In this document: positions 14,275 to 58,217 of the stretch, one piece after another
Layout: each line of letters opens with the position of its first letter
How positions within the stretch are numbered: the first letter of the stretch is position 1
NCBI GenBank assembly: GCA_025352665.1
Contig: JANXSM010000118.1
Coordinates: 1 to 64,000 of the forward strand
From: Rhodospirillales bacterium
GTDB taxonomy: Bacteria; Pseudomonadota; Alphaproteobacteria; Acetobacterales; Acetobacteraceae
Direction of reading: 5' to 3'
Length of the DNA: 64,000 nt
Notes under the pieces: model-generated
Database searches by the model: none
What the model saw: the letters and a program-made list of their open reading frames with translations, nothing else
What the model was told of the DNA's origin: nothing
Position numbers and translations under genes: made by a program

Positions 14275-14358
14275 CACTCAGGCGTGCTGCACAACCCACC
14301 GCCTAAACAAATGCTGCAACCGCGTTGGGGCAGTTGCAGCGTTGAGCAAATTACTGAC

Positions 14359-14463
14359 TAGAACGTGATGACGTCTGAGAGGCGGCGTCATCACGTTCTA
14401 GCTCTTCGTTTTATCGCGTGATTCAGACCCATCGGTGATTCCACGTTAGGTCATCACGCTCTA
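14359..14463 (-). repeat. Double-hairpin element, copy 1
   Basis: On the minus strand the element runs TAGAGC..., left hairpin (GCGTGATGACC paired with GGTC, bulge TGA, ATCACGC), an ATAAAACGAAGAG linker, then a right hairpin (AGAACGTGATGACG paired with its complement, loop containing GCCTCTCA). The ends are TA dinucleotides. The left end supplies the TAG stop codon of the CHAP gene. It lies between convergent genes. Other complete copies are at 18,758, 32,337, 52,057 and 57,964. Confidence 0.8.
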
Positions 14464-18025: not shown

Positions 18026-18760
18026 ATGAGCTTCTTCCCGCTGGCCGACATGATCGGCCTCGTCGTGTTCATCGCCCTCTGGGTCGGCTACGGGCCGACG
18101 GTGCGGCGCCACATGCCGCGCAGCATCAATGCCAACCTCGAAGGACTGCGCGTGGCCTGGATGCGCACCATGCTCCGGCGCGACAACCGAATCGTCGATT
18201 CTGCGCTGATCGGCCAAGTGCTGCAAAGCTCGAGCTTCTTCGCTTCCGCCAGCCTCATCGTTATCGGTGCATTGCTCAGCCTGCTGTCCAATGTGGAGCA
18301 TCTGCAGCCGGCAATCGAGCAGCTGGCCTTCGTGGCGCCGGTGTCGCGCACATTGTTTGAGCTCAAGCTGGTGCTGCCGCTGCTGATCATGGTGACAGGA
18401 TTCGTGAAGTTCACATGGTCGATCCGGCAGTTGAACTACACCATTGCGCTGATCGGCTCGGCACCCGATCACCATAACACCGGCCGCTTCCTGGAGCCGT
18501 TGGCCAAGACGATCGGCGATGTGATGTCGGCGGCCCTGGCCACGTTCAACGACGGCATGCGAGCCTATTACTACGCGATCGCCGGCCTCGCCTGGCTGGT
18601 CGGCCCGTGGGAAATGGCCGGGTGCGCCGCAGCTCTCACGGCCCTGCTGGTCTGGCGCCAGACGTCAAGTCCGGTCGCGAAAAGCTTCCAAGCTGCCTTG
18701 GCGACGGTGCACGAGGCCCATGCCGCGATCGGGGAGCGGGAAGCCCGCGAGCAGCGCTAG
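18026..18760 (+). CDS. DUF599-family membrane protein
   Basis: A 244-residue integral membrane protein of the DUF599 family (function unknown). It has an N-terminal helix (MIGLVVFIALWVGYGPTV), the conserved RRDNRIVDSALIGQVLQSSSFFASASLI and further helices near residues 115-135 and 185-215. It follows the amidase by 3 bases. The TAG stop is read from the end of the double-hairpin element beginning at 18,758. Confidence 0.85.
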   Translation: MSFFPLADMIGLVVFIALWVGYGPTVRRHMPRSINANLEGLRVAWMRTMLRRDNRIVDSALIGQVLQSSSFFASASLIVIGALLSLLSNVEHLQPAIEQLAFVAPVSRTLFELKLVLPLLIMVTGFVKFTWSIRQLNYTIALIGSAPDHHNTGRFLEPLAKTIGDVMSAALATFNDGMRAYYYAIAGLAWLVGPWEMAGCAAALTALLVWRQTSSPVAKSFQAALATVHEAHAAIGEREAREQR

Positions 18761-52059: not shown

Positions 52060-52161
52060 AGCCTGATGACTGAAGGTGGAATCACCGAAAGGTCTGAAAC
52101 ACGCCATAAAACAAAGAGCTTGAGCGGGATGACGTCGCCTATCAGACGTCATCCCGCTCAA
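52057..52161 (+). repeat. Double-hairpin element, copy 4
   Basis: TAGAGCCTGATGACT opens the left hairpin, which is partly decayed but keeps the GGTC-TGA bulge region. An ATAAAACAAAGAG linker and a 17-bp right hairpin (TTGAGCGGGATGACGTC, loop GCCTATCA) follow. The right end is CAA instead of CTA. The first TAG is the stop codon of the Hint protein. The 138 bases to the next gene hold no gene. Confidence 0.8.
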
Positions 52162-52299
52162 GTCCTCGGCGATCCTCAGATTGCGGCGTGCTGCAGGACC
52201 GATGATGCTCGAGCGGCGTGCTCCAGGCCGGTGTTGCTGGAATCCCGCCGATGCTATGCTACACAGCCTGATGATCGGCTGAAGGCGGAAGGGACGACG

Positions 52300-53166
52300 A
52301 TGAATTCCATGGAACAGACAGGTGCTGCACCTGGTGCCCGGCCGGCTCAGAGCCCGTTCAAGGCGCGCAAGACCCTGATCTTCGCCAACGACAAATCCAG
52401 CGGCAAGACCACCACGGCAAACGCCGTGCTGGTTAGCCTGCTGCAGCGCTACCCGATCCTGATGCGCAGCATCGACGTGCGCGAATACGAGCGCCAGCCG
52501 CGCCTGTCGCTGATCTTCAAGAAGGAGGATGGGTTCAACTCCATCATGCATCGCGACGCGCGCAACGGGGCGGCCTTCGACATGGCGCGCGAACTAGCCT
52601 ACGACCCCAATGCCACCCCGTGGGACGATCTGCTGTACGACATCGGCATTGGCAATCTAATCGTCGACCTCGGCTCCAACACCTTCTCCGAAATCTGCCG
52701 GATCCTAGATGACGAGCCACGGCCAATCTTCCCCGATGGCGGCGACCGCGTGGGCATCGTGGTGCCGGTGACCACGGCGGCCGACAGTCTCGAGTCGGGC
52801 ATGGCCGCGATCGATCATGTCAGCAGTTGGGGGCCGCGAACGCATATCTTCATCGTCGAACAGGAATATCTCGGCCGCTTCAGCGCTGATATTTCGGATT
52901 GGACGAGCTACCGTGACCGTATGGTGGCCGCCGACCCCTCGCGCGTCCAGGTGATCCGCATCGAGAAGTTGCTGGTGGCCGACATCGGCTCCGTGGTGTT
53001 CCAGCGCATCGACAAGATCGTGGAGAATGCCCAGTCCATGCTGCGCTCGGACAAGCTTACCGGCGCTGCCCTGCTGCGCGCCCTGCGCCAGGCTCGGGCC
53101 GAAATCTCTTGGGGCAACCGCACGCTGGACGCGATGAAGCCGATCGCCGACTGGTTCGCCAACTGA
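52300..53166 (+). CDS. ParA/MinD-like P-loop nucleotide-binding protein
   Basis: A 288-residue protein with a Walker A motif NDKSSGKTTTANAVL near residues 30-44 and the switch-like sequence LIVDLGSNTFSE. The overall layout is that of SIMIBI ATPases used by plasmids and integrative elements. The signature Lys of ParA is offset (DKSSGKT instead of KGGVGKT). There is no ParB-type gene nearby. ATG 52,300 is taken as start; the frame from 52,066 runs through the repeat. Its job is unknown; partition, conjugation or polysaccharide machinery are all possible. Confidence 0.7.
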   Translation: MNSMEQTGAAPGARPAQSPFKARKTLIFANDKSSGKTTTANAVLVSLLQRYPILMRSIDVREYERQPRLSLIFKKEDGFNSIMHRDARNGAAFDMARELAYDPNATPWDDLLYDIGIGNLIVDLGSNTFSEICRILDDEPRPIFPDGGDRVGIVVPVTTAADSLESGMAAIDHVSSWGPRTHIFIVEQEYLGRFSADISDWTSYRDRMVAADPSRVQVIRIEKLLVADIGSVVFQRIDKIVENAQSMLRSDKLTGAALLRALRQARAEISWGNRTLDAMKPIADWFAN

Positions 53167-53414
53167 GCCAATCCGCCGTGGCGGACGGGGCGAGCCAGGA
53201 TCTGAACAACCGGGTAACCATCATTGGCCGGATGATAGCCATGTTTGCCGTACTGCAGTGCCGCCCCAACCGGGCTGCGATCGCACCACCAAATTGGTGC
53301 ATGGACAGGTTGGCGGCGAAGATATGCCATCCCCAGGTTACGACTATCCTGCTAGCTTTAGGCTTACTGCCAGAATACGTCTCCTCGGCCGCCGGGTCCC
53401 TTCTTCGGGTGAAC

Positions 53415-53569
53415 TAGGAGCCCGTCTGAGTAATCGCTTACGTAAGCACACCGCGCAACATTGGTTCGCAGCCGAGGCGGCGCTGATTATTTTTAGAATC
53501 AGCCTGCCCCCTCTGAAGCAAGCCTCTTTCGTTTTTCGTTACGGCCATGATTACTCAGACAGGCTCCTA
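53415..53569. mobile_element. 155-bp MITE with 20-bp inverted repeats
   Basis: TAGGAGCCCGTCTGAGTAAT at 53,415-53,434 and ATTACTCAGACAGGCTCCTA at 53,550-53,569 are inverted repeats with one mismatch. CTAG stands at both ends, which fits a TA target duplication of the IS630/Tc1-mariner type. The interior codes for nothing. It overlaps the broken 3' end of an IS630-like transposase fragment. The upstream gap 53,167-53,414 shows nothing. Confidence 0.7.
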
Positions 53570-53802
53570 GCCGTGGCTGCAGCCGGGTCAGGCGCCGGGC
53601 GCGACACCAGGCCGTCCGCGCCCGGCTCGTTATAGCGCAGCACCCAATCACGCAGGGTTTGCCGATCCATCCCCGCCTGGCGGGCCGCGTCCTCGCGCGA
53701 ACGGCCTTCCAAGATCATGGCGAGCGCCAAAAGCCGTCGACTTTGTGATGAATTCCGGCTCGTGACTGCCAAATCACGCAGACCAGCCGCTGTATGGTCC
53801 AT
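53551..53802 (-). pseudogene. IS630-like transposase N-terminal fragment
   Basis: An 83-codon frame with the helix-turn-helix N-terminus of IS630-type transposases: RRLLALAMILEGRSREDAARQAGMDRQTLRDWVLRYNEPGADGL. It ends ATARSLSE inside the terminal repeat of the MITE at 53,415-53,569, so the DDE domain has been cut off. The stretch 53,803-54,077 upstream holds no gene. Confidence 0.75.
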
Positions 53803-54077
53803 CCGTGTCACCTTTACCGCCGCAGCCAGCTCATGCTTCAACGCGGAGAAACGACCGCACGCTCTGAGAATCAGGCTCTCAACGCTTTGGGAATCCCGGT
53901 GTATCAAGAATTGCGGCGGGTGGTATGAGCCACGCATCCCCTGGTCGTTCGTCGGGCATGGGCCCGTTGTATTCAGCCGGGCGACCATCGCGGGGTGCGA
54001 GGGCTGGGTAATGCGAGTAGACGCCGCCCGACAGTTGATCGGAAATCAAATCGGTGGTGCTGCCGCCAGGCAGTAGG

Positions 54078-57907: not shown

Positions 57908-57963
57908 GGATCTGCCCTCGATCAGCCAAGTAATTTCCGCAGCGCGCCATTTTGTGCATCTGC

Positions 57964-58067
57964 TAGAGCATCATCCGACCAAAAAAATCACCGTTCGGAT
58001 AAAGATGCTCGCTAAAACAGAAGGCTAGAGCATGATCCGCGCGCCTATCAGCGCAGATCATGCTCTA
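57964..58067 (+). repeat. Double-hairpin element, copy 5
   Basis: TAGAGCATCATCCGA pairs with TCGGAT, bulge AAA, GATGCTC (left hairpin). A GCTAAAACAGAAGGCT linker leads to the right hairpin (AGAGCATGATC with GATCATGCTCT, inner GCG/CGC, loop GCCTATCA). Both ends carry CTAG. Unlike other copies it does not touch a stop codon; the LacI gene ends 57 bases before it. Confidence 0.8.
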
Positions 58068-58217
58068 GACGCGATTTGGTGCGTCGAGCGCTGGATACGA
58101 TGAAATGGATTTGGTGAAGTCTGCACCCGCATCAACTAACCACTTCATCTTTGCCCAGAGAGGTGGCTGGCTTTGTCGTGACACCGTTTCGGTTTCTATA
58201 AGAAGAGCCTCTGCCGG

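Follow-up and report, generated by a model that had tools for sequence, protein, structure and literature searches.

MITEs with IS1182-family partners are already in print. MITEPye1 of Paracoccus yeei is described as a 159-bp element of low copy number in an alphaproteobacterial host, with no ORF, 18-bp TIRs like the ends of the IS1182 family, 4-bp direct repeats and the ability to form a stem-loop (PMC11578231). In Methanosarcina acetivorans, two MITEs are listed as related to ISMac2, an IS1182 partner, one of 160 bp (14 copies, IR 26, DR 4) and a second of 169 bp (7 copies, IR 25, DR 0) (PMC3852290). Repeats of 4 bp are given for such relatives in three reports (PMC11578231, PMC3281130, PMC3852290), among them the IS1182 element ISPse1 (PMC3281130). 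According to a review cited in PMC5678879, members of the family target palindromes, and IS1272, assigned to IS1182 in a cited review, is reported there to replace stem-loops with no target duplication. A study of a kiwifruit pathogen gives GGCC as the target of ISPsy36 (IS1182) and CTAG as that of ISPsy32 (PMC8027508).

Since MITEPye1 and the ISMac2-related elements are published, the MITE that we describe here adds one more member to a known kind. It lies in a window of 64,000 nucleotides, by which we mean the whole stretch of DNA that was analysed. The features to which we refer below are the following.

53414..53570, no strand: putative IS1182-type MITE, 157 bp from CTAG to CTAG (inverted repeat, copy family, alignment borders)
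53414..53435, + strand: left end, CTAG and 18-bp TIR (inverted repeat, core pattern search, end comparison)
53549..53570, - strand: right end, CTAG and 18-bp TIR (22 bp identical to the end of the IS1182 copy L235)
53414..53417, no strand: left CTAG, predicted target tetranucleotide (survey of the ends of full copies)
53567..53570, no strand: right CTAG (end survey and junction alignment)
53589..53929, - strand: main part of the IS630 remnant (87% identical to the paralogue L022)
53570..53595, - strand: 26-bp block of the remnant adjoining the MITE (100% identical to L022)
53381..53408, - strand: 28-bp block of the remnant across the MITE (96% identical to L022)
53551..53802, - strand: open frame, helix-turn-helix part of IS630 (ORF, HTH_29 and IS630 model matches)
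14358-14401, 18757, 32399, 52119 and 57963-58068: double-hairpin repeats

Likened by description, the window MITE and MITEPye1 agree in size, absence of an ORF, IS1182-like TIRs and alphaproteobacterial host; they differ in that the account of MITEPye1, in the sections describing it, reports no association with hairpin repeats (PMC11578231). The ISMac2-related MITEs, again likened by description, are similar in having an IS1182 partner, although their host is archaeal. IS1272 resembles the window family in targeting inverted repeats, as summarised for it in PMC5678879, but most copies of our MITE leave the hairpin in place. By sequence, a comparable element is found in Acetobacteraceae H1_MAG_00024 (L073), with 157 bp, CTAG at both ends and 69% identity over all 157 bp; it has diverged, its second TIR having 3 mismatches to the consensus, and we found no publication on it. 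Two IS1182 elements of Rhodospirillaceae M30B52 (L128, L136) carry CTAG-GAGCCTGTCCGAGTAATC at one end and the same with one mismatch at the other, like the MITE, but are autonomous, 1.47 kb long and code for an IS1182 transposase of 446 aa.

The arms of the window MITE form a 22-nt inverted repeat (53414-53435 and 53549-53570) that is 95% complementary, with one mismatch, and lie 113 nt apart. A sequence-only reading of this DNA had described a TA-flanked MITE of 155 bp with 20-bp inverted repeats, one mismatch and CTAG at both ends. That description is borne out by the TIRs, the repeat family and the length of 155 bp from TA to TA, the repeats being 22 nt long. At ≤3 mismatches, the 18-bp core of the TIR occurs at just two places in the 64-kb window, both of them MITE ends (shuffle mean 0.05, with two or more occurrences in 0 of 100 shuffles). 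Folded as single-stranded DNA, the element gives z = -6.3, and none of 200 shuffles folded equally well. It is short, bears TIRs and has no IS1182 frame within its 157 bp.

Sequence comparison makes it very probable, in our view, that this MITE derives from an insertion sequence of the IS1182 family and is a miniature form without a transposase of its own. It would be moved in trans by an IS1182 DDE transposase that recognises its TIR (GAGCCYGTCYGAGTAATC) and places it at CTAG, a palindromic tetranucleotide. Many copies would have landed at CTAGs of a REP-like double-hairpin repeat, and the window copy in a decayed IS630, splitting it. The mobilisation in trans, and which autonomous copy acts, are steps that we infer.

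The family assignment comes from full-length elements with the same end. A scan of the 21-bp end TAGGAGCCYGTCYGAGTAATC against genome_contigs returned at least 115 stretches, and the matches listed include Planctomycetota, Nitrospira, Bradyrhizobium, Methylobacterium, Acidobacteria, Chloroflexi and Armatimonadota. Among the same listed matches, 61 pairs of facing ends lay within 1.8 kb, with 47-1,549 bp between their GAGCC ends. Seven of these pairs measured 1,465-1,549 bp, and all seven had CTAG at both ends and coded for an IS1182 transposase above the NCBIfam cut-off (L103, L058, L084, L114, L128, L136 and L065; L128 and L136 belong to the same genome, and the match in L065 came from the second frame scanned, the first having given none). 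Two intermediate pairs, of 935 and 983 bp, yielded no IS1182 match, L115 in two frames scanned and L111 in its ORF list. G080 carries the 22-bp end without a mismatch (L235, 1501-1522); an IS1182 transposase starts 45 bp beyond it and shares 65% identity with the L136 transposase over residues 1-270.

This copy in G080 is broken. At 1568-3022 of L235, the IS1182 transposase frame is joined to another frame, presumably a group II intron reverse transcriptase from its appearance, which suggests a second insertion within this IS1182.

The genome that holds the window has IS1182 elements with intact frames whose ends, CTAG-SAGCCTGTCSGA, are related to that of the MITE (CTAG-CAGCCTGTCGGA in L166 and L167). 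Fragments at contig ends carry ends such as CTAG-GAGCCTGTCCGAGAAT, which match the MITE end over only the first 13 bases after CTAG. A search of the own assembly for the end (≤2 mismatches) brought up no autonomous IS1182 that has all 22 bp of it, since the 23 ends detected all lie in full or partial MITE copies; a partner of this kind in the same genome is not strictly required of an IS1182-family MITE. Beyond the TIR, 13 ends were compared: the right end of the MITE resembles L059 (equalled by none of 200 shuffles) and the left end of the full-length L136 (equalled by 2 of 200); the left end of the MITE has no convincing likeness to any of the 13, and the own-genome IS1182 ends among them gave nothing convincing. 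IS1182 fragments sit at the ends of contigs C144, C146, C59, C78, C77 and C126 (L176, L177, L182, L185, L173, L174, L180), the pattern that a multi-copy IS1182 would produce by breaking up the assembly, and an autonomous partner may lie hidden at such ends.

Copies of the MITE are scattered through its own genome (G000, 5.27 Mb in 177 contigs), in which a pattern search for the TIR end at ≤2 mismatches gave 23 matches and the reversed control none. A DNA search with the whole MITE returned 16 matches, comprising 11 full or nearly full copies, 4 partial copies of 30-103 nt and one TIR-to-TIR cross-match; the full copies, the window copy included, are 87-100% identical. Aligned copies are alike from CTAG to CTAG, and similarity breaks outside, giving sharp borders at unrelated places. 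The 11 full copies have 22 ends, of which 18 are exactly CTAG and 4 are one base off. Beyond this genome the distribution is narrow. The MITE end (≤2 mismatches) was absent from 7 of 7 congeners and from all 16 other family members examined, and matched once each in 2 of 16 other members of the class. At ≤1 mismatch, among 150 family genomes (the own genome included) drawn from a larger group, it occurred only in the own genome and in G080 and G155, both of one other genus of the same family. In G080, two elements of 157 bp (L232, L237) are bounded by CTAG on both sides, each of them with 4 mismatches in one TIR. The phage collection had no match to the MITE. In the plasmid collection, 45 nt of the end found 6 weak matches, including one in Methylobacterium radiotolerans that covers 21 bp of the TIR; for 1 kb of the locus, matches were limited to 7 records and fell at genes annotated as IS630.

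Three copies, in C161, C155 and C16 (L036, L043, L039), start precisely where a long frame ends, at its TAG stop, which the CTAG provides; these frames run from 275 to at least 500 codons. The copy in C169 had been considered as interrupting a gene as well and was dropped, the frame there resembling a degenerate transposase by eye.

Read from these borders, the insertion site is CTAG, a tetranucleotide scarce in this genome: in a sample of 464 kb, made up of the window and 20 other stretches picked by contig and not at random, it occurs 174 times, whereas base composition predicts about 1,486, an approximately ninefold depletion. Outside this genome, CTAG stood on both sides in 32 of 60 pairs among the matches listed, a count biased by the selection of one end per pair for TAG; the unselected ends were CTAG in 35 of 64. 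In the other 28 of the 60 (24 from Planctomycetota), mostly the outer two bases vary while the inner AG/CT is nearly fixed, and no duplicated tetranucleotide other than CTAG was seen in these 28. For this deviating, mostly planctomycetal group, we incline to an insertion that falls between CT and AG and duplicates nothing, the decay of old copies being an alternative. The MITE itself has CTAG on both sides, and a palindromic target looks alike with or without a 4-bp duplication. Candidate empty sites in Planctomycetota gave the same score under three insertion models for L132, and for L099 favoured duplication by 37 to 32 on weak similarity (a 55-nt match, 82%). Both elements (L132 1705-1980 and L099 670-946, compared with L051 and L158) lie inside a multi-copy repeat that is itself palindromic (GGCCAGC..GCTGGCC), which again points to palindromes as landing places.

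At the short extreme, 14 of the 61 pairs among the matches listed are elements of 55-63 bp, measured from CTAG position to CTAG position, with little beyond two facing IS1182 ends. Thirteen are planctomycetal and one comes from a Terriglobales MAG (stretches L052, L066, L080, L089, L095, L110, L113, L124, L140, L154, L156, L164 and L165). Across several phyla, the same end is found on elements whose length ranges from about 55 bp to 1.55 kb, and it can be used for tracing IS1182-driven miniatures widely.

Many of the MITE copies in the own genome stand beside another repeat. The element at 18,758 of the window belongs to a family of double hairpins of about 105 bp, built as yTAG-AGC..., a linker (~TAAAACAAAGR), CTAG, a 36-bp hairpin and CTAG. 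The own genome has 30 strict 44-bp hairpins (the pattern fixing CTAGAGC), and 23 double-hairpin places were detected in the 464-kb sample. Copies of 107 bp in C170, C110 and C36 are identical, and across three main stem types the pairing is kept while the sequence differs; some tandem double hairpins have one CTAG in common (L210, L212, L220). Strict hairpins were found in 3 other genomes of 40 searched, one congener and two family members. A survey of GTAG- and CGTC-tagged palindromes contains, by word search of its searchable text, no CTAG family (PMC3733652).

A double-hairpin repeat adjoins 8 of the 11 full MITE copies, compared with 34 of the 174 sampled CTAGs (binomial p 2e-4, Fisher p 4e-4). 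Because the sample is non-random and the order of insertion is not known, this is an association and not a proof of preference. The MITE sits at the outer foot of the hairpin in C16, C38 and C106, at the opposite end of the double-hairpin repeat in C161 and C22, between linker and hairpin in C110a, at a fused double-hairpin form in C85 and in the hairpin's place in C80; the window copy and those in C155 and C169 have no adjoining double hairpin. The sequence-only reading had suggested that related transposases may mobilise MITE and hairpins, pointing to a likeness of the outer sequence TAGGAGCC to one end of the 18,758 element. What stands of this link is the common CTAG site, and not a common transposase. 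The likeness is not a rule of the family: relaxed hairpin copies (≤4 substitutions, no inserted base allowed) start CTAGAGC or nearly so, so that the extra G at 18,758 is not typical.

A broader proposal is that IS1182 elements, MITEs and CTAG-bounded double hairpins form one system, in which an IS1182-type DDE transposase also moves the hairpins, those of type A having matching 15-bp ends (CTAGAGCATSATCCG). We regard this as unlikely. A search with the type-A end gave 43 matches, by position apparently double-hairpin copies, and in L030 no facing repeat was visible by eye. Were the proposal true, each insertion at CTAG would leave new CTAG landing sites, building arrays of hairpins, MITEs and insertion sequences; REP-like palindromes would have a RAYT-independent origin, and the 55-63-bp two-end elements would represent the extreme case of this. 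A RAYT as mover of the hairpins was set aside, the own genome having no match to Pfam Y1_Tnp (RAYT-type) while 5 of 14 control genomes were positive; this bears on the hairpins and not on the MITE. Through the hairpin link, a way in which REP-like repeats might arise can be tested in a genome without a detected RAYT-type transposase. Among the literature matches listed, judged by title and the start of the abstract and with subscription journals mostly outside the scope, none connected an IS1182 MITE with CTAG-bounded hairpins.

The association also raises the question of whether the MITE replaces stem-loops, so that CTAG-MITE-CTAG stands where CTAG-hairpin-CTAG had been, as for IS1272. Such a mode would refine the IS1182 reading and does not compete with it, but we hold it to be rather improbable. 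The arrangement in C80, in which CTAG-MITE-CTAG comes after the double-hairpin linker and no hairpin stands beyond it, is what replacement would produce, and the two planctomycetal copies inside palindromic repeats agree with it, as does the reported replacement of inverted repeats by IS1272, put in the IS1182 family (PMC5678879). In C16, C38, C106 and C110a, however, the hairpin is intact beside the MITE. Linkers without a hairpin also occur free of any MITE (among 21 linker matches in the sample, 7 did not reach the palindrome threshold, some of these having visible imperfect hairpins), and the window site fits a simple insertion at CTAG.

That window site is a fragment of an IS630 element, which sequence alignment identifies as the insertion target, split by the MITE. 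As the sequence-only reading had stated, the minus-strand frame 53551-53802 enters the right repeat and stops there according to the ORF list, its last codons and stop being supplied by the MITE. The frame matches HTH_29 above cut-off (5e-12), and also positions 1-51 of a 299-position IS630 model at 4.7e-8, below the model's whole-protein cut-off. The same reading had placed the MITE in the 3' part of an IS630-like transposase; the IS630-like remnant is real, but what is preserved is the N-terminal helix-turn-helix part. A paralogue on contig C77 (L022) is 87% identical to the remnant over 343 bp and continues with the 26-bp and then the 28-bp block, which in the window flank the MITE on opposite sides. 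Once the MITE and one CTAG are taken out, the window and L022 can be aligned gap-free across the junction (CCACGG-CTAG-TTCACCCG in the window, CCACGG-CCGG-TGTAACCG in L022); a 1-base gap lies about 15 bases from the junction and a 2-base gap further away. The left flank alone scored 49 against L022, with a maximum of 34 in 1,000 shuffles. Because the paralogue reads across the insertion point and the remnant continues beyond the MITE, the IS630 fragment is to be taken as the target. About 80 bp of L022 are missing from the window copy, so that it would be a relic even apart from the MITE.

The paralogue thus provides an uninterrupted site of the kind for which the earlier reading had called, whereas the orthologous loci do not. 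The gene upstream of the locus is strongly matched in 5 congeners and 81-84% conserved in the 4 loci compared, but similarity ends at its stop codon (53166-53170), so no junction is comparable; neither the IS630 nor the MITE is present at these 4 loci.

These results also decide against the origin that the sequence-only reading had proposed, that of a TA-duplicating MITE of the IS630/Tc1-mariner group. We consider this very unlikely. TA does flank the window copy at both ends, the copy does lie inside an IS630 remnant, and TA on both sides with differing outer bases was seen in 9 of 60 external pairs among the matches listed (L089, L095, L154, L164, L158, L135, the 276-bp copy of L095, L163 and L111). 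In the window copy TA is always part of CTAG, and a TA duplication is inseparable from CTAG in the own genome. Against the proposal, the 83-aa IS630 frame has 9 matches there, of which only the window locus has MITE ends: the 18-bp end (≤4 mismatches) was absent within about 1.5 kb on either side, or to the contig end, of the other 8 (two of which overlap on contig C77). A search for IS630 elements with the same ends therefore came back with none of these 8, while all seven full-length pairs among the matches listed code for IS1182. The remnant also resumes on the far side of the MITE, which makes IS630 the target and not the source. Replacing IS630 by IS1182 decides which transposase to test, and the landing site can be named as CTAG, often at the feet of hairpins.

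That the MITE is instead a non-mobile structured element, a terminator-like or regulatory hairpin kept by selection, is extremely unlikely: it folds well and three copies (C161, C155, C16) start at the TAG stop of a long frame, but the whole unit recurs at unrelated places with sharp borders, its ends are missing from all seven congeners and from the 4 congener loci examined, and it interrupts the IS630 remnant.

In the window, the first codons of the plus-strand frame 52066-53166 run through a double-hairpin copy. Its first 33 or so residues match more than 100 places in the genome, and congener homologues align only from about residue 59-73; for these reasons, the true start of this frame probably lies further inside.
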